This document shows positions 15,362 through 28,414 of a DNA stretch of 32,306 nucleotides, in pieces. Positions within the stretch are counted from its first letter, which is position 1, and each line of letters begins with the position of its first letter. A program made the translations under genes and the position numbers. The notes beneath the pieces were generated by a model, which ran no database searches, was not told the origin of the DNA, and was given only the letters and a program-made list of their open reading frames with translations. The stretch comes from Myxococcales bacterium. GTDB taxonomy: Bacteria > Myxococcota_A > Polyangia > Polyangiales > Polyangiaceae. Location: positions 1 to 32,306 of the forward strand of contig JAJYCT010000019.1 in the NCBI GenBank assembly GCA_021778125.1, read 5' to 3'.

Positions 15362-16408
15362 ATGAAGCGCGCGCTGATCACCGGGATCACCGGCCAGGAC
15401 GGCTCGTACCTCGCCGAGCTCCTGCTCGAGAAGGGCTACGAGGTCCACGGCATCGTCCGGCGGGCGAGCACGTTCAACACCGACCGGATCGACCACCTCT
15501 ACAAGGATCCGCACGATCCGACGGCGCGCCTCTTCCTGCACCACGGCGATCTCTCCGACGGCACGGGTCTGCGGCGCATCCTCGAGCGCGTGCGCCCCGA
15601 CGAGGTCTACCACCTGGGCGCGCAGTCGCACGTGCGCGTCTCCTTCGATGAGCCCGAGTACACCGCCGACGTCGACGGGACCGGGACGCTGCGCCTGCTC
15701 GAGGCGCTGCGCGACTCGATGGGCGGCTCCGGCCGGAGCACGCGCGTGTACAACGCCGGCTCGTCCGAGATGTTCGGCGCCGCGGAGCCCCCGCAAAGCG
15801 AGTCCACCGCGTTCCACCCGCGCAGCCCGTACGCGGTCAGCAAGGTCGCCGCGTTCTGGTACTCGGTGAACTACCGTGAGGCGTACGGGATGTTCGTGTC
15901 CAACGGCATCCTCTTCAACCACGAGTCCCCGCGCCGCGGCGAGACGTTCGTCACGCGCAAGATCACGCGCGCCGCCGCGCGCATCAAGCTGGGCCTGCAG
16001 GACAAGCTCTACCTCGGCAACCTCGAGGCGAAGCGCGACTGGGGCTTCGCGGGCGACTACGTCGAGGCGATGTGGCGGATGCTGCAGCAGGACCGGCCAG
16101 ACGACTACGTCGTCGCCACCGGCGAGGCCTACTCGGTGCGCCAGTTCGTGGAGGCCGCCTTCGCCTTCCACGGCCTCGAGTGGACGCCCTACGTACAGAT
16201 CGAGGAGCGCTACTTCCGCCCCTCCGAGGTCGACCACCTGTGCGGCGACCCGCGCAAGGCGCGCGCGGCGCTCGGATGGGCGCCCCGCGTGAGCTTCCAG
16301 GATCTCGTGAAGATGATGTGCAGCCACGACCTCGAGCTCGCGCGCCAGGAGAAGACGCTGCGCGACGCGGGGCACACCTTGGGCGTACGCGGAGGCGGTC
16401 GCGAATGA
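15362..16408 (+). CDS. gmd: GDP-mannose 4,6-dehydratase
   Basis: [49 protein letters not shown]...[37 protein letters not shown]. Confidence 0.97.
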
Positions 16409-17334
16409 ACAAGGGCGACCGCATCTACGTGGCCGGCCATCGCGGCCTGGTGGGCTCGGCCATCGTGCGCCGCCTCGAGACCGACGGCTTCGACCATCTC
16501 GTCCTGCGCACGCGATCCGAGCTGGATCTGCGCCGCCAGGACCAGGTCGACCGGTTCTTCGAGCAGGAGCGGCCGGACTACGTGTTCCTCGCCGCAGCCA
16601 AGGTCGGCGGCATCTATGCGAACAACGCGTATCCCGCCGACTTCATCCGCGACAACCTCCTCATCCAGACGCACGTCATCGACGCTGCCCACCGGGCGGG
16701 CGTCGAGAAGCTCCTGTTCCTCGGGTCCTCATGCATCTACCCGAAGCAAGCGCCCCAGCCGATGACCGAGGAGTGCCTGCTCACGGGTCCCCTCGAGGCG
16801 ACCAACCGGCCCTACGCGCTCGCCAAGATCGCCGGCCTCGAGATGGTTCGCTCGTACCGCCGGCAGTTCGGTTTCCGGGGTATCGCCGTCATGCCCACCA
16901 ACCTGTACGGCCCGCACGACAACTTCGATCCCGAGACGTCGCACGTGCTGCCGGCGCTGCTCCGCAAGATCCACGAGGCGCGCGCTGCGGGGGCAGCCGA
17001 GGTCGAGGTCTGGGGCACCGGTCAGCCGCGGCGCGAGTTCCTGCACGTCGACGATCTGGCCGACGCCTGCGTGTTCCTGATGCAGCGCTACGAGGGCGAG
17101 CTCGCGCTGAACGTAGGCGTCGGCGACGACGTGACCATCCGGGAGCTCGCCGAGCTGATCGCCGGGGTGGTCGGCTTCGAGGGGAAGCTCCGATTCGATG
17201 CCTCCAAGCCCGACGGCACTCCCCGCAAGCTCCTCGACGTCTCCCGGCTGCATGCCCTGGGCTGGCGCGCGCGCATCTCGCTCGAGAAGGGCGTCGCGGA
17301 CACCTACGAATGGTTCCGGAGACGCGCGACGTGA
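16405..17334 (+). CDS. fcl: GDP-L-fucose synthase
   Basis: [21 protein letters not shown]...[22 protein letters not shown]...[44 protein letters not shown] overlap with gmd. Confidence 0.96.
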
Positions 17335-17399: not shown

Positions 17400-18062
17400 A
17401 TGAGGGCTCGTTTCGCTCGCGGATGCGTCGGCGCGATTGCAGTGTTGGCCATGCTGGGGTCCTACGCCTGCAGCCTGTCCAGCAACGGGGAAGGGACTGT
17501 CGGGCCCGATGGTTCGACGACCGATACGGGCGGGCCGGCGGAGGACGGGGCCACGGAGGCCAGCGTCGTGACGGATTCCTCCATCGTGGACGCGGTGACG
17601 ATGGATGCTCAGTCGGTCGATTCGGGGCCACTCCAGGAGTCCGGCGTGCTCGAAGCGGGCCCTGACTGCGGCGCGGGGTTCCGATGCGGGAACGACTGCC
17701 TGCCTCCGGGCACCGATCCGTGCGGCGCGTGCGACGCGGGACACCTCGCCTGCAACGACGACCAGTCGTGCGTTAGCGACTGCGTCCAGTGCACCGGACG
17801 CCCCGTCGAATGCTGCAACGCTCAGGGGGCTCCGTCCGGAGCGTGCCTCACGTTCTACCTGATCAACACCTTCTACAACGGGCAGTGCCCGACGAACCAG
17901 GTACGCTGCCCCTGCGCAAGCGGCGACGCGGGGTCGTGTCCGAGCGCCAGCCAGGTATGCCTGCAGGATGGCTGTAACGCCTGCGGCGAGACCCCCGGTA
18001 CCGATGGCCTGACGTGTCACGGTTCGGGGACGTGCAGCCTGGAGGCGGGGGCTTGCCTCTAG
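17400..18062 (+). CDS. Secreted Cys-rich protein / putative lipoprotein
   Basis: N-terminal hydrophobic signal MRARFARGCVGAIAVLAMLGSYACSLSS, Asp/Gly/Ser-rich linker, then Cys-rich domain CGAGFRCGNDCLPPGTDPCGACDAGHLACNDDQSCVSDC. Lipobox is non-consensus (SYAC). Confidence 0.7.
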   Translation: MRARFARGCVGAIAVLAMLGSYACSLSSNGEGTVGPDGSTTDTGGPAEDGATEASVVTDSSIVDAVTMDAQSVDSGPLQESGVLEAGPDCGAGFRCGNDCLPPGTDPCGACDAGHLACNDDQSCVSDCVQCTGRPVECCNAQGAPSGACLTFYLINTFYNGQCPTNQVRCPCASGDAGSCPSASQVCLQDGCNACGETPGTDGLTCHGSGTCSLEAGACL

Positions 18063-18922
18063 GCCAGGCCCAGGATCCGCGCCTCGCGACCTGGGTTCGG
18101 CACCAGTACGCCGCAGTAGCGCTCGAACAGGTACTGGTGGCCTTCGACCGAGAAGGCATCGACGCGCTCCCCGTGAAGGGGGTGGTCCTCGCACCGCGGC
18201 TGTACGGCAGCCTCGCTGACCGGCCGATGGGGGACGTCGATCTGCGCGTCCGCCCTGCGGACCTCCAGCGCGTCGCGCGCGTGGCTTCGGCGTCTGGATG
18301 GCCCGTTCGCCGGACCTCCCGACAGCTCGGAACGCTCGATCTTGATGTCTGCAACACACTCATCGAGATCGAGACGACAATCGGTCCACCAGGGGTGTGC
18401 GCGGTGGACGTGGATGCCATGCTCCGCCGTTCGACCGTCCAGACGGCGCCCTTCGGCTTCCGGCACAGGGAGCCGGAGGTCCATGACCACGCGCTCGTCC
18501 TCTGCGTGAACGCGTTCAAGGACCAGCTCCGCTTCGCTCCTCCAACGTGCGCGACCGATCTGGCTCTGCTTGCGCGCCGTCCGGAGTTCCACGCGGACCG
18601 CATGGTGTCGAGAGCCCGCGAAGCCCGCCTTACGGCGCTCGTCTGGCTCGTGGCCGACTGGCTCGAGCGCCGGACACCGGGCACGACGTGGGGCGAGGTG
18701 CTCATCCGGCTGGGAAGCGTGCCTCCCCGCCCGGTCTACGCCCGCGCCTTTGCGGCCACCATCCGGAGCCCGTCGGCGTCCTCGGTTGCCGCAGCGGCCG
18801 TGCTGGCCCGGACCTGCTCGGACGACTGGTGGATGCGCTGCAAGGCACTGGGCCTCGGCGCCCTGGGAACTGCACTGGCCCTCGGTCACCACAAGGGCTG
18901 GGCCGCTCGCACGAGCGCGTGA
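18014..18922 (+). CDS. Nucleotidyltransferase family protein (PF14907-like), of the type found in lasso peptide clusters
   Basis: GIDALPVKGVVLAPRLYGSLADRPMGDVDLRVRPADLQRV (GS...DxD-type motif) ...VHDHALVLCVNAFKDQLRFAPPTCATDLALL; start uncertain (GTG 18014 overlaps the upstream gene by 49 nt). Confidence 0.8.
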   Translation: MSRFGDVQPGGGGLPLGQAQDPRLATWVRHQYAAVALEQVLVAFDREGIDALPVKGVVLAPRLYGSLADRPMGDVDLRVRPADLQRVARVASASGWPVRRTSRQLGTLDLDVCNTLIEIETTIGPPGVCAVDVDAMLRRSTVQTAPFGFRHREPEVHDHALVLCVNAFKDQLRFAPPTCATDLALLARRPEFHADRMVSRAREARLTALVWLVADWLERRTPGTTWGEVLIRLGSVPPRPVYARAFAATIRSPSASSVAAAAVLARTCSDDWWMRCKALGLGALGTALALGHHKGWAARTSA

Positions 18923-18987: not shown

Positions 18988-19164
18988 GTGACGGATCGCA
19001 AGCAAGATGGGCTCGAAGCCGCGTGCTCCGGCGCCGGCGAGCAAGCCGCGGCGCGGCGCAAATACTCGCGCCCGACGCTGCGGCATCTAGGCTCGGTCCG
19101 CGAGATCACGCTCGGCGGGACCAAGGGCACCTCCGAGACCGGCGGGCACCGAACGAACGGATGA
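18988..19164 (+). CDS. Lasso-peptide-family precursor (A), 58 aa: leader 1-42, predicted core GGTKGTSETGGHRTNG
   Basis: GTG start with strong RBS (tggaggaga). Leader has YxxPxLxxxG (Y26-S-R-P29-T-L31-R-H-L-G35) and T41 at -2; predicted core starts at G43 with Glu at core position 8, as expected for a G1-E8 macrolactam. Followed by the cyclase gene with ATGA overlap. Confidence 0.88.
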   Translation: MTDRKQDGLEAACSGAGEQAAARRKYSRPTLRHLGSVREITLGGTKGTSETGGHRTNG

Positions 19165-20942
19165 TCGCTGCAGTCCTGGCTCCGAGCGTCGCCGACCGCG
19201 ACGAGCGGATGGCCAGGATCGTCGCGTGGGCGGGGCCCACGAGCGCCCGCTGGACGGTGGGCCGCGCCGTCTTTGCAACGTGGCCGCATTGCGGGCGAGC
19301 GGGCCGCACGGGCGATGGCGCCGTGTTGGGCCGTCTGGATACGGCGGTCGATCACCTGGGGCTGGACCTAGGGCGTGCGAGCGGAGACTTCGCGCTCGTC
19401 AGTCCTGCCGCCGATGACGGCCTCCTGCTCGCCCGGGCGCAGCTCGCAGGCCGCCCCCTCTACTACTGGCGCGACAGGGCGACGGGGGCCGTCGTCGTGT
19501 GCTCGCAACTCGCCGGGTTGCTGCATGTCATCGGGCACCGGCCCTCCTTGAACGTGCAGCGGCTCGCGTCACTCGCGGTCGAATGGCCCCACTTCGATCC
19601 GACCGCGACCGTCTACGACGCCGTCTCCCGTGTGGACCTCGGCCAGGCGCTGGTGTTGTCCCTGGAGCGCCGCGTCGCGACCCGGACCCATGCCATCGGT
19701 GTGGAGCCGCTGCTCGAGGGGACGGCCGAGGAGCTCGCCGACCAGCTCCGGGCACACGTCCTTTCTGCCGTTCGCCGCTCGATCGAGGGTGCGACCCGGG
19801 TGGCCGTGATGGCCGGCGGAGGCGTCGACTCGAGCGGCCTCCTGGCAGCCGCCGTGGCCATCGCTCGGGGGGCTCCGAAGCGCGACGTCCAAGCGATCGC
19901 CTTCGACTTCGCCGGCCCTGGCGACGACCGTCCCTACCTCCGGGCGCTCGCGTCCGCCCTGGGCCTCGAGCCGATCCGGGTCGGAGCGAGTGGCCTGAGC
20001 CCCTTCCTCCGGAAGACGCTCGTCATCGATGCGTCGCCCGCGGCATGGCCATCGATAGCGGTGGACGTAGGCCTCGCGGCGGCAGCCCGGGAGGCCGGCG
20101 CCGATCGCCTGATCTCTGGTGTCTGCGGGGACGATCTCATCGATGGCGAGCCACGGTTCCTCGCCCAGGTCGCACGCGGGGGGCATCTCGTGGAAGCGCT
20201 GCGGGATGCGGTCCGCCTGCGACTCTACTGGAGGACGTCCGCGGCCGAGCGAGTCGTCTCGTTCGTCCTGCGCCCCCTCGCCGCGACCACGCTGCCCTGG
20301 TTGGCCCTCGCGACACGCCGCATGCGCAACCGGGTGGATCAGGACTGGCTCGGACCCGAGCTCCGCGCTCTCGTGGAGACGACTGCGGCGAGGGATCGGC
20401 GTCGCTATCCGCAGGACGTCCATCTGAGGTCGCGGCATCGCATCCTGGCCGCGCGCTACCTGCAGAGCGTGATGGAGGTCCAGGCGCAGGTCACCGCAGC
20501 GACGGGGCTCGCCACGGCGAGCCCCTTCTTGGATCGCGAGCTCGTTTCCTTCGTTACCCGGATCCCTCCGACCATGCTGTTGCACGGAGGTCGCCTCAAA
20601 GGCTTGTACCGGTTGGCCATGCGCGGCCTGGTACCCGACCAGATCCTCGATCGCCCCGACAAGGCGGAGTTCGTCTGCGGCTACGACGAGGTCGTCCAGG
20701 GCGCCGGGGGGTTCGGGGCGCTCGAGGATCTGGCGACCATGAGGGAGCTCGGTAGGCTCGGGCTCGTCGAGCCGGCCCCATACCTGCGCGCGTACCGGAA
20801 GCTCACGGGCGAGGCCCGCGCGAGTGGGGAGTGGCTCCTGCTGTGGCCTGCCCTCGCCGTGGAGGCATTCGTGCGAGCGTACGAGCGGGGAGATCTGACA
20901 CCGCGACCTCCGCGCACTGTCGCCGCGGACGTAAGGGCCTGA
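19161..20942 (+). CDS. Lasso peptide cyclase (C), asparagine-synthase-like (McjC/LarC-type)
   Basis: AsnB-like architecture lacking the N-terminal catalytic Cys; ARAQLAGRPLYYWRD, PP-loop VAVMAGGGVDSSGLLAAAVAIA, LISGVCGDDLIDGEP, TASPFLDRELVSFVTRIPP, GRLKGLYRLAMRGLVPDQILDRPDKAEF. Confidence 0.9.
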   Translation: MIAAVLAPSVADRDERMARIVAWAGPTSARWTVGRAVFATWPHCGRAGRTGDGAVLGRLDTAVDHLGLDLGRASGDFALVSPAADDGLLLARAQLAGRPLYYWRDRATGAVVVCSQLAGLLHVIGHRPSLNVQRLASLAVEWPHFDPTATVYDAVSRVDLGQALVLSLERRVATRTHAIGVEPLLEGTAEELADQLRAHVLSAVRRSIEGATRVAVMAGGGVDSSGLLAAAVAIARGAPKRDVQAIAFDFAGPGDDRPYLRALASALGLEPIRVGASGLSPFLRKTLVIDASPAAWPSIAVDVGLAAAAREAGADRLISGVCGDDLIDGEPRFLAQVARGGHLVEALRDAVRLRLYWRTSAAERVVSFVLRPLAATTLPWLALATRRMRNRVDQDWLGPELRALVETTAARDRRRYPQDVHLRSRHRILAARYLQSVMEVQAQVTAATGLATASPFLDRELVSFVTRIPPTMLLHGGRLKGLYRLAMRGLVPDQILDRPDKAEFVCGYDEVVQGAGGFGALEDLATMRELGRLGLVEPAPYLRAYRKLTGEARASGEWLLLWPALAVEAFVRAYERGDLTPRPPRTVAADVRA

Positions 20943-20952
20943 AGGCCCCGCC

Positions 20953-21744
20953 ATGGCCGCCCTTACCTGGCTCTGCGAGCAGCGTGAGCGCGACGAGCTG
21001 ATCTTCCGGGTCGGACGTGACGGAGAGAGCCTCGTGGCCGACTTCGTGGGCGTCGGAAGGCTCAGCGCTCGCCCGGGCGATCCGGCGCCGACGTTCGAGC
21101 CCTACCCGGATGCCTCACCGGCGGCGGTCGCCAAGCTGCTCGAAGGCCCGGTCCCGGCCTTGCTGCGCACCCTCGAAGGGAGGCTCGCCCTGCACGGCGC
21201 GTCGGCCGCGCGGAACGGCCGCGCCATCGTCTGCGTGGGCCCGAGCGGAGCCGGAAAGTCGACGACGATCGCAGAGCTCGCGCGGCGTGCGGGCGTCGAG
21301 CTCGTGAGCGACGACGCGGCGGCGCTCGATGCCGTGGAGGGGCGGATCCAGATCACGCCGACCGAGCCTACGAGCTGGCTGTTGCCCGCGGCGCGAAGGG
21401 CCTTGGGACTCGATGCCTCATCCGAGTTCAAGACCCGGGTCGCTCCACGAGCGCGGTGCACCGGGCGGCCAGACGTCATCGCGATCTGTGGTCTCACGTT
21501 CGACGACTCGGCGGAACCGAGTCTTCGTCGACTCGCGGGGGCCGAGGCCTTCGCCGTGCTGGCCGGTTGCGCGGTTCGATTCGACATCGACGACCCGACG
21601 GCGCGCGTCCGGGAGCTCGAGCAACTCATGGAGGTCTGCCGACGAGTCTCGATCTTCGAGCTGCGCCGTCCGCGCGCGTTGGAGAAGCTGTCCGCCCTCG
21701 GCGACCTGCTGGAGGCTCTTCTGACTGCCGGGGGGAATCCATGA
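20953..21744 (+). CDS. HPr kinase/phosphorylase homolog (lasso precursor kinase type)
   Basis: LEGRLALHGASAARNGRAIVCVGPSGAGKSTTIAELARRAGVELVSDDAAALD: Walker A GPSGAGKST and downstream SDD motif of HprK-like kinases; sits between cyclase and B1. Confidence 0.88.
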   Translation: MAALTWLCEQRERDELIFRVGRDGESLVADFVGVGRLSARPGDPAPTFEPYPDASPAAVAKLLEGPVPALLRTLEGRLALHGASAARNGRAIVCVGPSGAGKSTTIAELARRAGVELVSDDAAALDAVEGRIQITPTEPTSWLLPAARRALGLDASSEFKTRVAPRARCTGRPDVIAICGLTFDDSAEPSLRRLAGAEAFAVLAGCAVRFDIDDPTARVRELEQLMEVCRRVSIFELRRPRALEKLSALGDLLEALLTAGGNP

Positions 21745-22034
21745 GGCTCGGCGACCACGATCGCGTCCTCGTCGCTACGGGGGTCCACGTGCGGGAGTTC
21801 GAAGGGGAGCTGATCATCCTCGACCTGGCGCGCGGCGACTACTTCGGGCTCGACGAGGTGGGGGCGCGCATGTGGGTCCAGCTCGCGGCCGGACGGACCC
21901 TGCGTGAGGTGGCCGAGGTGCTCTCGGCCGAGTACGGTGAACCCGTGGATCGAGTGCTCGACGATGCGCGCCATCTGGTCGAAGCGCTCCTCGAGCGCGG
22001 CCTGGCCGTGGTAGCAGCCAAGGCCCAGCCATGA
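21741..22034 (+). CDS. PqqD-family RiPP recognition element (lasso B1)
   Basis: 97-aa; VREFEGELIILDLARGDYFGLDEVGARMWVQLAAGRTLREVAEVLSAEYGEPVDRVLDDARHLVEALLERGL is a PqqD/B1 fold signature; ATGA overlaps on both sides. Confidence 0.92.
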   Translation: MRLGDHDRVLVATGVHVREFEGELIILDLARGDYFGLDEVGARMWVQLAAGRTLREVAEVLSAEYGEPVDRVLDDARHLVEALLERGLAVVAAKAQP

Positions 22035-22384
22035 GGGCCGTCGCGGCCGCACACGCGCTGCACGCCGTGGCCCGGATGGCTCTTCGGCTGGCCTCCCCGT
22101 TGAGGGCGAAGCGCATCGTCGATGCCGTGGGGCGCCGTATGCCCCGCCTGCTTGCGCACGAAGCGCGAGCCGTCGCGAACGCCATCGACTCCCGAGGAAC
22201 GTGCCTGAGCCGGGCCATGACGGTTGCGGCCATGGTCCCGGGCGCGGCCGTCGTGATCGGGGTCGATCCGCTCGCCCGTCGTCCGCTGTTCGGTCACGCG
22301 TGGGTAGAACTGGCAGGCCAGCCCCTGCGCCCGGGCGACGTCGACGGCTTCGAAATCGCGCGCCTGGTGACGGATCAGCCGTGA
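22031..22384 (+). CDS. Lasso peptide B2 leader peptidase (transglutaminase-like)
   Basis: DSRGTCLSRAMTVAAMV (catalytic Cys), GHAWVELAGQPL (His) plus downstream Asp; typical short B2 protein directly after B1. Confidence 0.92.
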   Translation: MRAVAAAHALHAVARMALRLASPLRAKRIVDAVGRRMPRLLAHEARAVANAIDSRGTCLSRAMTVAAMVPGAAVVIGVDPLARRPLFGHAWVELAGQPLRPGDVDGFEIARLVTDQP

Positions 22385-22447: not shown

Positions 22448-23482
22448 GTGAAGAACTTGCTGCGCGTGGCTGGTGCCTTGGGGGCCGTCGGTACCGTGGT
22501 TGGAGCTCTGGTCATGACGGGAGCGGGGTGTTCCGGTTCGACGGCTACGTCGCCGGGCTCCGACGCGGGGGAGGACGCAACGGGGGACTCGGCAGCCGAC
22601 GGCGGCGAGGACGTCACGTCGACCGAGACCGGAACCGACTCGGGAACGGTCGACTCCAGCACGGTCGACTCCGGGACCAGGGACTCCGGCACGGTCGACT
22701 CGGGCACGGTGGATTCGGGGATCATCGTGGACTCCGGCTCCGTTGACTCTGGCACCGGCGACGGCAGCCCGGAAGCGGCCCCGTCCTACGCCTTCTTCCC
22801 CAACGAGGTCGTGCAGACCATCTGCAACCACCTCGCAACATGCTGCGAAGGCTCGAACACGTCCTCCTTCAACATGCAGCAGTGCTTCGCGGTGTTCACG
22901 TCGTTCGGCGGACTCAACGGCGACGGCCTCTACCTCGCCGAGCCGGCCCTGCAGGCCGACGGCGGGGCCGCGGTGGCGTACAACCCGAGCGCGGCGGCAG
23001 CATGTCTAGCGGACATCTCCGCGCTGCCCTGCGGCAGCGTCCACGACACGTCATGGCAGCAGGTGACCAGTCAGTGCTTCGCGGCGCTGACGGGGGGCAT
23101 TCCGGTCAACGGCACGGGCTGCCACGGGTCGATCGAGTGCGCGCCCGACTCTTATTGCAGCAACGGGACGTGCACTCCCATCCTCGCGCTGGGGGCGCCG
23201 TGTACGACGAACGACCAGTGCCAGTACCGTGGCACGGCACCCAAGACGGCGTACTGCGACTACCAGTACCCGAACCCGGACGCGGGCACGCAGACCTGCG
23301 TCGCGGCGCAGCCGACCGGTTCAGTCTGCGGGTACACGTTCTATTATCCCAACGAATGCCAGACGTTCGTGTGCAACGCGAGCTCGGGTCTCTGTGACAC
23401 GGCCCAGCTCTTCAGCGATCCCGGTGTGTCGCAGGGTCTGTGCGACTCGTTGACCATCAAGGACGCAGGCGGCGGCGGCTGA
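22448..23482 (+). CDS. Putative lipoprotein with Asp-Ser-Gly repeat linker and Cys-rich domain
   Basis: GTG start with RBS aaggag; VKNLLRVAGALGAVGTVVGALVMTGAGCSGS (lipobox-like TGAGC); linker ...DSGTVDSSTVDSGTRDSGTVDSGTVDSGIIVDSGSVDSGTGDG; then Cys-rich domain. Confidence 0.75.
   Translation: MKNLLRVAGALGAVGTVVGALVMTGAGCSGSTATSPGSDAGEDATGDSAADGGEDVTSTETGTDSGTVDSSTVDSGTRDSGTVDSGTVDSGIIVDSGSVDSGTGDGSPEAAPSYAFFPNEVVQTICNHLATCCEGSNTSSFNMQQCFAVFTSFGGLNGDGLYLAEPALQADGGAAVAYNPSAAAACLADISALPCGSVHDTSWQQVTSQCFAALTGGIPVNGTGCHGSIECAPDSYCSNGTCTPILALGAPCTTNDQCQYRGTAPKTAYCDYQYPNPDAGTQTCVAAQPTGSVCGYTFYYPNECQTFVCNASSGLCDTAQLFSDPGVSQGLCDSLTIKDAGGGG
22630..22760 (+). repeat. In-gene low-complexity repeat encoding (T/S)VDSG units
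   Basis: Recurring gactccggcacggtcgactcgggcacggtggattcggg-type units, about 15-18 nt each. Confidence 0.7.
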
Positions 23483-23602: not shown

Positions 23603-24883
23603 ATGAACGAACGCATCGCGGTCATCGGTCTGGGCTACGTGGGCCTGCCCGTGGCTCTGGCCTTTGCCCGGAGGTTCCCTGGCACCATCGGCTTCGACGT
23701 CAACGCGGAGAAAGTCGACGAGCTGCGACGCGGCTTCGATCGGAACCACGAGCAGCCGCGCGAGGTGCTCGAATCCACCTCGTTGCAGATGACGGCCAAC
23801 CTGGCCGATCTTCAGGGCGCAACCTTCTTCGTCGTCGCAGTGCCGACGCCCGTCGACCAGAACAACCTCCCCGACCTCACGCCGGTCGAGCGCGCCAGCG
23901 AGGCGGTCGCCCGGGTCCTCTCCAAGGGCACCGTGGTCGTCTACGAGTCGACAGTCTACCCCGGGGTCACGGAGGAGATCTGCGGTCCGATCCTCGAGCG
24001 CGTGAGCGGATTGAAGCAGGGCGTCGACTTCAAGCTCGGCTACTCTCCCGAGCGGATCAACCCAGGAGACAAGGAGCACACGCTCGAGCGCATCACGAAG
24101 GTCGTGAGCGGGGAGGACGCCGCGACGCTCGAGCGCGTTGCGTCGGCCTACGGCGCGATCATCGACGCCGGTGTCCACCGCGCGCCGAGCATCCGCGTCG
24201 CCGAGGCGGCGAAGGTCATCGAAAACACTCAGCGCGACCTGAACATCGCCCTCATGAACGAGCTGGCGATCATCTTCGACCGCATCGGGATCCGTACGTC
24301 CGACGTCCTGGCGGCGGCGTCCACGAAGTGGAACTTCCTGCGCTTCCGCCCCGGGCTCGTCGGCGGTCACTGCATCGGCGTGGATCCGTACTACCTGACG
24401 ATGAAGGCGCAGCAGCTCGGCTACCAGCCCGAGGTCATCCTCGCGGGGCGCCGCATCAACAACAACATGGGGCCGTACGTTGCGGCGAAGGTCGTCAAGC
24501 TGCTCATCGACGCGGACCTCAGCGTGAAGGGAGCGCGTGTGGGCGTGCTCGGCCTGACGTTCAAGGAGGACTGCAGCGACATCCGCAACAGCCGGGTGCC
24601 GGACATCCTGCGGGAGCTGAAGCAGTTCGGTATCGAACCGCTGGTGCATGACCCGATCGCGGACGCCAGCGACGCGGCGCATGAGTACGGAATCAAGCTC
24701 GTGTCGGTCGACGAGCTGGCTCGCCTCGATGCGCTCGTGCTTGCAGTGAGCCACCGCTGGTACCTCGACCGGGGAACCGAGGCGTTGAACTGCATGCTGC
24801 GCAGGGGCGGGGTCCTGATCGACGTGAAGAGCGCGCTCGAACCTGCTCAGGTCCGCGCCGACGTGAGGTATTGGAGCCTGTAG
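23603..24883 (+). CDS. tviB: UDP-N-acetylhexosamine 6-dehydrogenase (TviB/WbpO-like nucleotide sugar dehydrogenase)
   Basis: IAVIGLGYVGLPVALAFARRF, VPTPVDQNNLPDLTPVERASEAV, YESTVYPGVTEEICGP, GYSPERINPGDKEH, AKVIENTQRDLNIALMNELAIIFDRIGIRTSDVLAAASTKWNFLRFRPGLVGGHCIGVDPYYLT. Confidence 0.9.
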   Translation: MNERIAVIGLGYVGLPVALAFARRFPGTIGFDVNAEKVDELRRGFDRNHEQPREVLESTSLQMTANLADLQGATFFVVAVPTPVDQNNLPDLTPVERASEAVARVLSKGTVVVYESTVYPGVTEEICGPILERVSGLKQGVDFKLGYSPERINPGDKEHTLERITKVVSGEDAATLERVASAYGAIIDAGVHRAPSIRVAEAAKVIENTQRDLNIALMNELAIIFDRIGIRTSDVLAAASTKWNFLRFRPGLVGGHCIGVDPYYLTMKAQQLGYQPEVILAGRRINNNMGPYVAAKVVKLLIDADLSVKGARVGVLGLTFKEDCSDIRNSRVPDILRELKQFGIEPLVHDPIADASDAAHEYGIKLVSVDELARLDALVLAVSHRWYLDRGTEALNCMLRRGGVLIDVKSALEPAQVRADVRYWSL

Positions 24884-26734: not shown

Positions 26735-28414
26735 GTGCGTGCGCGAGTCCGCGAGACACTAGGGCTCCTTGCGTCGGTCTCGTCGCCAGCGGCGGGGCCC
26801 GGCGCTCGGGCGGTGGCAGCGCTGGCGCTCCTCGAGCGCCTACTGACGCCAGCGACGGCCTGGTTCGTCCTGCAAGGCGGGCTCGCCGCGAAGATCGGCG
26901 CGACGGCCACGCTGGCGGCCGTCTTCACGCTAAGGAGCTTCGCGCAGCGTACGCTGGCGGCACGACGCGAGGCGCAGCTGTTCGAGCGGGTCATCTCGAC
27001 GCTCATCGAAGGCGAGGTTCTCCGCGCCAGAGTGCTGCTGAGGCGCGACGCCCGCAGTGACCTACCGCAAGCAGTCCACTACTCGGCCATCACCCAGGCG
27101 CAGACCGTCCCCAACCTGCTCGCCGACACGGCAGCATCGATCCTGCTGATGCTCGTCGTGCTGACGATCGAGCCCGTTCGACTCGTGCTGTCGGCCGCCG
27201 CGCTGACGGCGGTGGCAGCTGCCGGCGTCGTCTGGTCTCGAGGGCGCCTGCAGCGAGCCGCGAAGCGTGCGTGGGCTGCACAGGAAGCGGTGATTCTCGC
27301 GCTCGTCGACGCGCTCGAGGGTCGCCTCGAAGTCGTGGCGGCTGGCCGAGGTGACGCCTTCCTGGACGAAGCCCGTGCACGGGCGCGTGCCTGGTGGCGG
27401 GCCAGCTCGCGCGTGGCCTCGGCGACGCTCGTGTCGGGTCGCCTTCCCATGCTCGCGGTGGCCGCCGCCGTCGTGGTCCTCGTGGCGCTGAGCTCTCGTT
27501 CGCGCGGGGTGCTCGCGATCACGCTCCCGGACCTCGCGCTCTTCGCGAGCGTCACCCCCGCGTTCGCGGGCATCGCACAGGGCCTCTATGCGCTCACACA
27601 GGCCGAACCGTGGTTAGGCCTGGTCGCTGAGACCCTTCGTCTGTCGAAACGGCCTCCGGGGGGCGCGCGACCGGTGCCGCAGCTACCCGCGACCGTCGAC
27701 TTTGCCCGCGTATCGTTCGAGTACGGCCCCTCGGGAACCCGCCGCGCGCTGCAGGACGTTACCTTCGCCTGGGATCGCGGCCGCGTCTTGGCTCTCGCTG
27801 GCACCAATGGCTCGGGCAAGAGCACGTGCCTGCGCCTTCTGCTCGGTCTTGCCCCGCCGATCGCGGGCCACATCACGATCGGCGGAGTCTCGCTGTCCGA
27901 GCTCGACATCGAGGCCTGGCGCCGCGGCATCGCGTTCCTCCCCCAGCGCGCGTACATGCCGCCGCAGGCCGATCTCGGTGCCGCGATCCGTTTCCTGGTC
28001 CCCGAAGCGACTGATGATCGGATCCTCGCCGCCCTCGACCGCGTCGGCCTGCTCGCATCGCTCCACCGCTTCGGGGACGCTCCCCTCGCCGCCCCCATCG
28101 ACGCCCTCTCCGTCGGCGAACGCCAGCGCGTCGCGATCGCGCGCCTGCTCTGCCACGACGCCGCGGTGTACCTTCTCGACGAGCCGGACGCGAACCTGGA
28201 TCGCGCGGGGATCGCCTTGTGCGCCCGGCTCGTACGCGAGCTCTCTCAGGGCGCGATGGTCGCGTTCGCGGCACACACCCCCGAGCTCATCGAGGCTGCG
28301 GATGACGTGCTGACCCTGGAGCGCGGGCGCGGGGTCGCCAATCTCGAGCCCGACGTGTCCGCGTTACGTCATGGCAAGGTCGACATCTCCGGAGGCGGCG
28401 CAAACTCCGAGTAG
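26735..28414 (+). CDS. ABC transporter, fused TM-ATPase half transporter (exporter type)
   Basis: GTG start; N-terminal TM region then VDFARVSFEYGPSGTRRALQDVTF, Walker A GTNGSGKST, Q-loop LPQRAYMPP, signature LSVGERQRVAIARLL, Walker B AVYLLDEPDANLD, H-loop AAHTPE. Confidence 0.9.
   Translation: MRARVRETLGLLASVSSPAAGPGARAVAALALLERLLTPATAWFVLQGGLAAKIGATATLAAVFTLRSFAQRTLAARREAQLFERVISTLIEGEVLRARVLLRRDARSDLPQAVHYSAITQAQTVPNLLADTAASILLMLVVLTIEPVRLVLSAAALTAVAAAGVVWSRGRLQRAAKRAWAAQEAVILALVDALEGRLEVVAAGRGDAFLDEARARARAWWRASSRVASATLVSGRLPMLAVAAAVVVLVALSSRSRGVLAITLPDLALFASVTPAFAGIAQGLYALTQAEPWLGLVAETLRLSKRPPGGARPVPQLPATVDFARVSFEYGPSGTRRALQDVTFAWDRGRVLALAGTNGSGKSTCLRLLLGLAPPIAGHITIGGVSLSELDIEAWRRGIAFLPQRAYMPPQADLGAAIRFLVPEATDDRILAALDRVGLLASLHRFGDAPLAAPIDALSVGERQRVAIARLLCHDAAVYLLDEPDANLDRAGIALCARLVRELSQGAMVAFAAHTPELIEAADDVLTLERGRGVANLEPDVSALRHGKVDISGGGANSE

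Follow-up and report, generated by a model that had tools for sequence, protein, structure and literature searches.

The lasso peptide kinases reported so far act mainly on a C-terminal serine, with one published exception, and the locus described here raises the question of what such a kinase does when the precursor encoded beside it lacks that serine. The locus lies in the window, a 32,306-nucleotide stretch of Myxococcales DNA (contig C161 in a draft genome of 5.9 Mb), and a first-pass annotation pointed out that it pairs a lasso kinase homolog with a precursor that has no C-terminal Ser. The pairing holds: the kinase gene is an intact open reading frame for a predicted HprK-fold protein, and the core ends in Gly. 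We consider it probable that the product is a leader-dependent HprK-fold lasso-precursor kinase whose target, in a reaction aided by B1, is Thr3 of the precursor while this is still linear.

Organization of the lasso cluster

The lasso genes are tightly grouped, all on the + strand, in the order N-A-C-K-B1-B2-lipoprotein, with an ABC protein gene further on:

18014–18922, + strand: N, nucleotidyltransferase-like protein (NTP_transf_5; PF14907, E 1.6e-25), motif GSLADRPMGDVDL
18988–19164, + strand: A, lasso precursor (NF033521 lasso_leader_L3, above cut-off), with a GTG start after GGAGGAG
19114–19161, + strand: predicted core GGTKGTSETGGHRTNG, with its putative start set by the T(-2)/Y(-17) leader register and a predicted G1–E8 isopeptide ring
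19120–19122, + strand: Thr3 codon, predicted phosphorylation site (BsfA Ser3 equivalent; position-3 Ser/Thr enrichment)
19161–20942, + strand: C, lasso cyclase of the asparagine-synthetase family (PF00733, E 2e-34; NCBIfam lasso cyclase models)
20953–21744, + strand: K, putative HprK-fold peptide kinase, 263 aa (H81, GPSGAGKST 96–104, D120-D121)
21741–22034, + strand: B1, PqqD-like leader-recognition protein (RRE; PF05402, E 6.5e-14)
22031–22384, + strand: B2, leader peptidase (Transglut_core3), short at 117 aa (PF13471, E 1.4e-8; NF033537 just below cut-off)
22448–23482, + strand: Cys-rich lipoprotein with lipobox GAGC, conserved beside the kinase in the window's clade
26735–28414, + strand: D, ABC transporter, probable exporter (PF00005, E 7.2e-28)

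There are four-base overlaps at A/C (ATGA at 19161), K/B1 and B1/B2, and the stop-start overlaps at A/C and K/B1 suggest a single transcriptional unit. The components are those of a lasso cluster with a class II type precursor: a leader with YxxPxL and T(-2), a core with Gly1 and an Asp/Glu at 7–9, and B1, B2 and C proteins. B2 has both the Cys in GTCLSRAM and the His in GHAWVE; B2 and C score under the NCBIfam equivalog cut-offs and over the Pfam cut-offs. Homologues of D are found in most loci of the kinase clade described below. Genes for GDP-mannose dehydratase/GDP-fucose synthase (15362–17334) and a UDP-sugar dehydrogenase (23603–24883) flank the cluster, and a gene for a collagen-like Gly-x-y repeat protein (PF01391; 25169–26659) lies between the sugar dehydrogenase and the ABC transporter.

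The precursor leader carries YSRPTL and ends in T(-2)-L(-1), directly before the core; an alternative longer A frame from 18964 is likewise open. The core ends R-T-N-G and has hydroxyls at T3, T6, S7, T9 and T14, exactly as listed in the first-pass annotation, and the precursor does not end in the Ser that marks the paeninodin type. A C-terminal Ser missed through a frame error was considered and rejected, because the stop of A is fixed by the overlap with C.

The kinase has a predicted HprK fold and intact catalytic residues

Profile matches to the kinase cover only its P-loop half and fall below cut-off, both in Pfam (Hpr_kinase_C, E 5.7e-4) and in NCBIfam (best match HprK-related kinase A, E 1.9e-9). 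AlphaFold predicts an HprK/PEPCK-type P-loop kinase (mean pLDDT 85.9, pTM 0.82); the top Foldseek match of the model is the HprK 3tqf (E 1.3e-5), and structure alignment with L. casei HprK 1kkl gives Z 12.2 and rmsd 3.1 over 135 residues. PEPCK, which has the same fold as HprK, is also matched in the structure comparison. Across 20 aligned sequences there is no variation at His81, in the P-loop GPSGAGKST at 96–104 (including Gly101-Lys102-Ser103-Thr104) or at Asp120-Asp121, and the predicted fold, His, P-loop Lys and Asp-Asp of an HprK-fold kinase are all present. These residues align with H148, K169, S170, D186 and D187 of the lasso kinase BsfK, where mutation of the aligned catalytic residues lowers activity (PMC10368454). 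A plasmid search returned one weak partial match.

A kinase clade whose precursors mostly lack a C-terminal serine

The survey drew kinase homologues from 317 genomes at the level of the class and, for BsfK relatives, covered 377 genomes at the level of the phylum, and the precursors in the retrieved loci were read by means of the leader motif. In a careful tree of 49 kinase sequences the window falls in a 22-member clade (support 100/100), and the Bradymonadales form a second (100/100). The precursors of 21 of the 22 members of the window clade have no C-terminal Ser, the exception being L055, whereas all four proteobacterial comparators (L136–L139) have one. Scanning with a four-sequence kinase alignment gave 12 loci, all distant, which served as C-terminal-Ser comparators. 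On an earlier, quicker tree the C-terminal-Ser trait requires 6 changes; shuffling the labels gives 10.9, and none of 500 shuffles came down to 6. In two kinases with C-terminal-Ser precursors, L067 and L070, the Asp-Asp pair reads Asp-Gly (SDGMTP and CDGMTA). Many cores of the window clade (within L037–L057) end in Met (MAM, GKM, RAM, MNM), which is an unusual-looking lasso C-terminus.

The same A-C-K-B1 order recurs in related genomes, and we therefore rejected the idea that the kinase is a chance neighbor of the lasso genes. Inactivity of the kinase was likewise set aside on the basis of its intact catalytic residues, whose loss the first-pass annotation had named as an observation that would overturn its proposal. 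More broadly, it is very unlikely that the kinase is inactive or has some other role without peptide modification. The substrate positions are not fully kept, and we found no experiment on this clade in the open-access literature; however, the catalytic residues are invariant throughout the clade alignment, the kinase gene overlaps B1, every one of the 22 clusters places it with C and B1, and peptide phosphorylation has been demonstrated for related lasso kinases (PMC9266682; PMC10368454).

Core position 3 is the best candidate for the modified residue

The first-pass annotation started from the premise that characterised lasso kinases target a C-terminal Ser. This is correct for PadeK, ThcoK and SyanK, but it is incomplete because BsfK, from the myxococcotal Bradymonas sediminis, phosphorylates Ser3 within the ring of BsfA (Duan et al. 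2023; PMC10368454). BsfA ends in Asp without a C-terminal Ser, and the bsf cluster includes an N gene; BsfK accepts S3T and refuses S3Y, does not use the core alone as a substrate and so depends on the leader, and is enhanced by B1 (PMC10368454). Kinases whose precursor does not have the C-terminal Ser are thus a known kind. Translated here, the BsfA core is GTSGNEVDGSTPADRGNNPGD, and the window residue in register with its Ser3 is Thr3. The Bradymonas genome G322, with 100% identity to BsfK, falls in the same phylum as the window.

Across the five closest clusters (the window and L031–L034) core conservation is limited to G1, Thr3 and the ring acid (D/E, at position 8 or 9); read by column from position 1 to position 8 the cores are GGGGG, GDPGG, TTTTT, KGGAG, GSNGR, TLNSR, SGGRS and EDDKD. 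Since a control set of kinase-less Myxococcota lasso precursors was too small, the ring positions of the same cores were used as the control. With p-values that correct for relatedness only in part, Ser or Thr occupies position 3 in 15 of 25 clade cores compared with 7.2 expected when ring residues 2–7 are shuffled (p 0.0007), and in 11 of 20 non-redundant cores (p 0.012); with one core per subclade the fraction is 0.53, versus 0.19–0.34 elsewhere in the ring (median p 0.036), and adding the Bradymonadales, six of whose seven cores have Ser/Thr at this position, gives p 0.0008. None of the C-terminal-Ser lineage has Ser or Thr at position 3. The two residues interchange there, with Ser in L053 and Thr in L055 and L058. 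In three members of the clade (L038, L053 and L058) and in the Bradymonadal L076, residue 3 carries the sole core hydroxyl, and their kinases, if core-acting, must act on it.

There are departures from this pattern. In about 40% of the clade cores Ser/Thr is missing from position 3 and found at 2, 4 or 5 instead (GSPSG, GAGS, GALGS), and the modified residue may therefore differ between clade members. In a separate Myxococcota kinase lineage (L059–L065, L068, L107 and L114) it is ring position 5 that has Ser/Thr, in 7 of 9 cores (p 0.0013), a pattern noticed post hoc. Together with the presence of T6, S7, T9 and T14 in the window core and a conserved LGS in the leader, these departures are what favors phosphorylation of another precursor hydroxyl, whether one of those four or a Ser/Thr of the leader, for example Ser(-7), which we regard as unlikely. 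No other core position is equally enriched in the clade, tail hydroxyls are missing altogether in L033, L034, L038, L041, L044, L050, L053 and L058, and T6, S7, T9 and T14 are unconserved in the closest clusters. As for the leader, LGS is typical of lasso leaders in general, and we found no evidence for the leader as target that the first-pass annotation had also entertained; its suggestion of an internal Thr/Ser gains support and can be narrowed to ring Thr3 by the BsfK precedent and the conservation of position 3. Given the exceptions, and that the window clade is not the sister of the BsfK clade, Thr3 is a best bet only.

Phosphorylation of Thr3 would proceed by B1 binding the leader and delivering the linear precursor to the kinase. 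With its P-loop, His81 and Asp120/Asp121 the kinase would use ATP to phosphorylate the Thr3 hydroxyl before this residue becomes part of the macrolactam ring. B2 would then take off the leader, C would close the Gly1–Glu8 ring, and the ABC protein would export the product. A role for the phosphate as a tail plug was rejected, the predicted site being in the ring, and the earlier proposal that phosphorylation supplies missing steric bulk finds no support, because residue 3 belongs to the macrolactam ring and not to the threaded tail.

The nucleotidyltransferase may act on the phosphate

N adjoins A and retains an intact nucleotidyltransferase motif (GS...DxD). Genes for a kinase and a nucleotidyltransferase, as in the pseudomycoidin cluster, are both present in the window. 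N may act on the phosphate after the kinase, perhaps attaching a sugar to it in the way that PsmN does to phospho-Ser. In its full form, with the phosphate a transient handle and the mature product bearing a phospho-sugar or nucleotide on residue 3, this is a possibility that we put forward tentatively. It draws on the phospho-hexosylated pseudomycoidin made by PsmK and PsmN, in which PsmN adds a hexose to the phospho-Ser (PMC9266682; PMC8498205), on the position and motif of N, and on the GDP-fucose and UDP-sugar acid genes that flank the cluster. However, N is present in just 10 of the 22 clade loci within the locus DNA retrieved, which would make it an optional second step, and we found no report of nucleotidylation or sugar transfer by a Myxococcota N in the open-access literature. 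The link to the nucleotidyltransferase raised in the first-pass annotation is accordingly plausible from PsmK/PsmN and weakened by this patchy occurrence. Such a handle and phosphorylation at Thr3 are mutually compatible.

A conserved lipoprotein and other features of the clade

The Cys-rich lipoprotein has a lipobox and about 20 near-invariant Cys residues, and it matched no named family. Of the 22 clade loci 20 carry it, and all 62 other kinase loci are without it (Fisher p 2e-17, uncorrected for relatedness); one of the two loci without it, L055, stops at a contig edge. Homologues are present in L031, L032, L034–L044, L046, L048, L050–L054 and L056–L058, and the window gene is single-copy in its genome. 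The lipoprotein is probably part of the lasso system, perhaps with a role in immunity, surface display or export.

No recognisable B2 was found in the retrieved DNA of L035, L037–L039, L041–L044, L046, L048, L054 and L056. These loci keep A, C, K and B1 and include in particular those of one genus, within L037–L048, alongside L035, L054 and L056; in those inspected the lipoprotein gene directly follows B1.

The precursors of L031 (3813–4416) and L032 (3785–4412) are fused at their C-termini to a Peptidase_S74-like domain, a self-cleaving intramolecular chaperone (E 0.003 and 0.0067, below cut-off), which begins at a Ser directly after the core, past ...MMM or ...MGM. The fusion was sought in the 317 genomes, and among the 30 loci read it occurs in only two genomes of one genus. 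The domain could free the core C-terminus by self-cleavage. A search of the open-access literature for lasso peptides that carry an intramolecular chaperone found no papers.

Implications

In the Myxococcota surveyed here the exception among lasso kinases appears to be the rule, and the substrate position appears to track kinase lineage. This relationship amounts to a testable code for predicting modification sites in genome mining, and it points to a set of natural kinases that could introduce phosphate into the ring rather than the tail. For the function of these peptides, the conserved lipoprotein offers a lead. One may combine lineage-specific kinase addresses (the C-terminal Ser; ring position 3 in the window clade and the Bradymonadales; ring position 5 in another Myxococcota lineage) with a ring phosphate as a handle for N and envelope handling by the dedicated lipoprotein; this combination is improbable in its entirety, and if true it would describe a surface-linked phospho- or phosphoglyco-lasso system, not an ordinary secreted antibiotic.

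Comparison with known systems

Among the closest known systems is bsf, which shares with the window an HprK-like kinase with the H-K-D-D residues, the A, B1, B2, C, D, K and N gene set, membership of the same phylum, and a precursor that lacks a C-terminal Ser and has Ser/Thr at core position 3. The two differ in gene order (C-A-D-B1-K-B2-N in bsf and N-A-C-K-B1-B2 in the window), in leader position -2, where BsfA has Ile and the window has Thr instead of the Ile/Val of the BsfK type, and in the lipoprotein, which the window clade has and the Bradymonadal loci lack. The kinases belong to separate clades and are not sisters in the tree, and their pairwise similarity is confined to about 65 residues around the P-loop. 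The paeninodin-type kinases PadeK, ThcoK and SyanK are also HprK-like, act on linear lasso precursors and have the same catalytic motif (PMC9266682), but they act on a C-terminal Ser that the window precursor does not have. The pseudomycoidin cluster likewise combines a kinase and a nucleotidyltransferase, although its target is a C-terminal phospho-Ser and it is from Bacillota. The pairing of kinase and precursor therefore already has a precedent in BsfK, and what is new is the window clade, its lipoprotein and the apparent lineage-specific choice of site.
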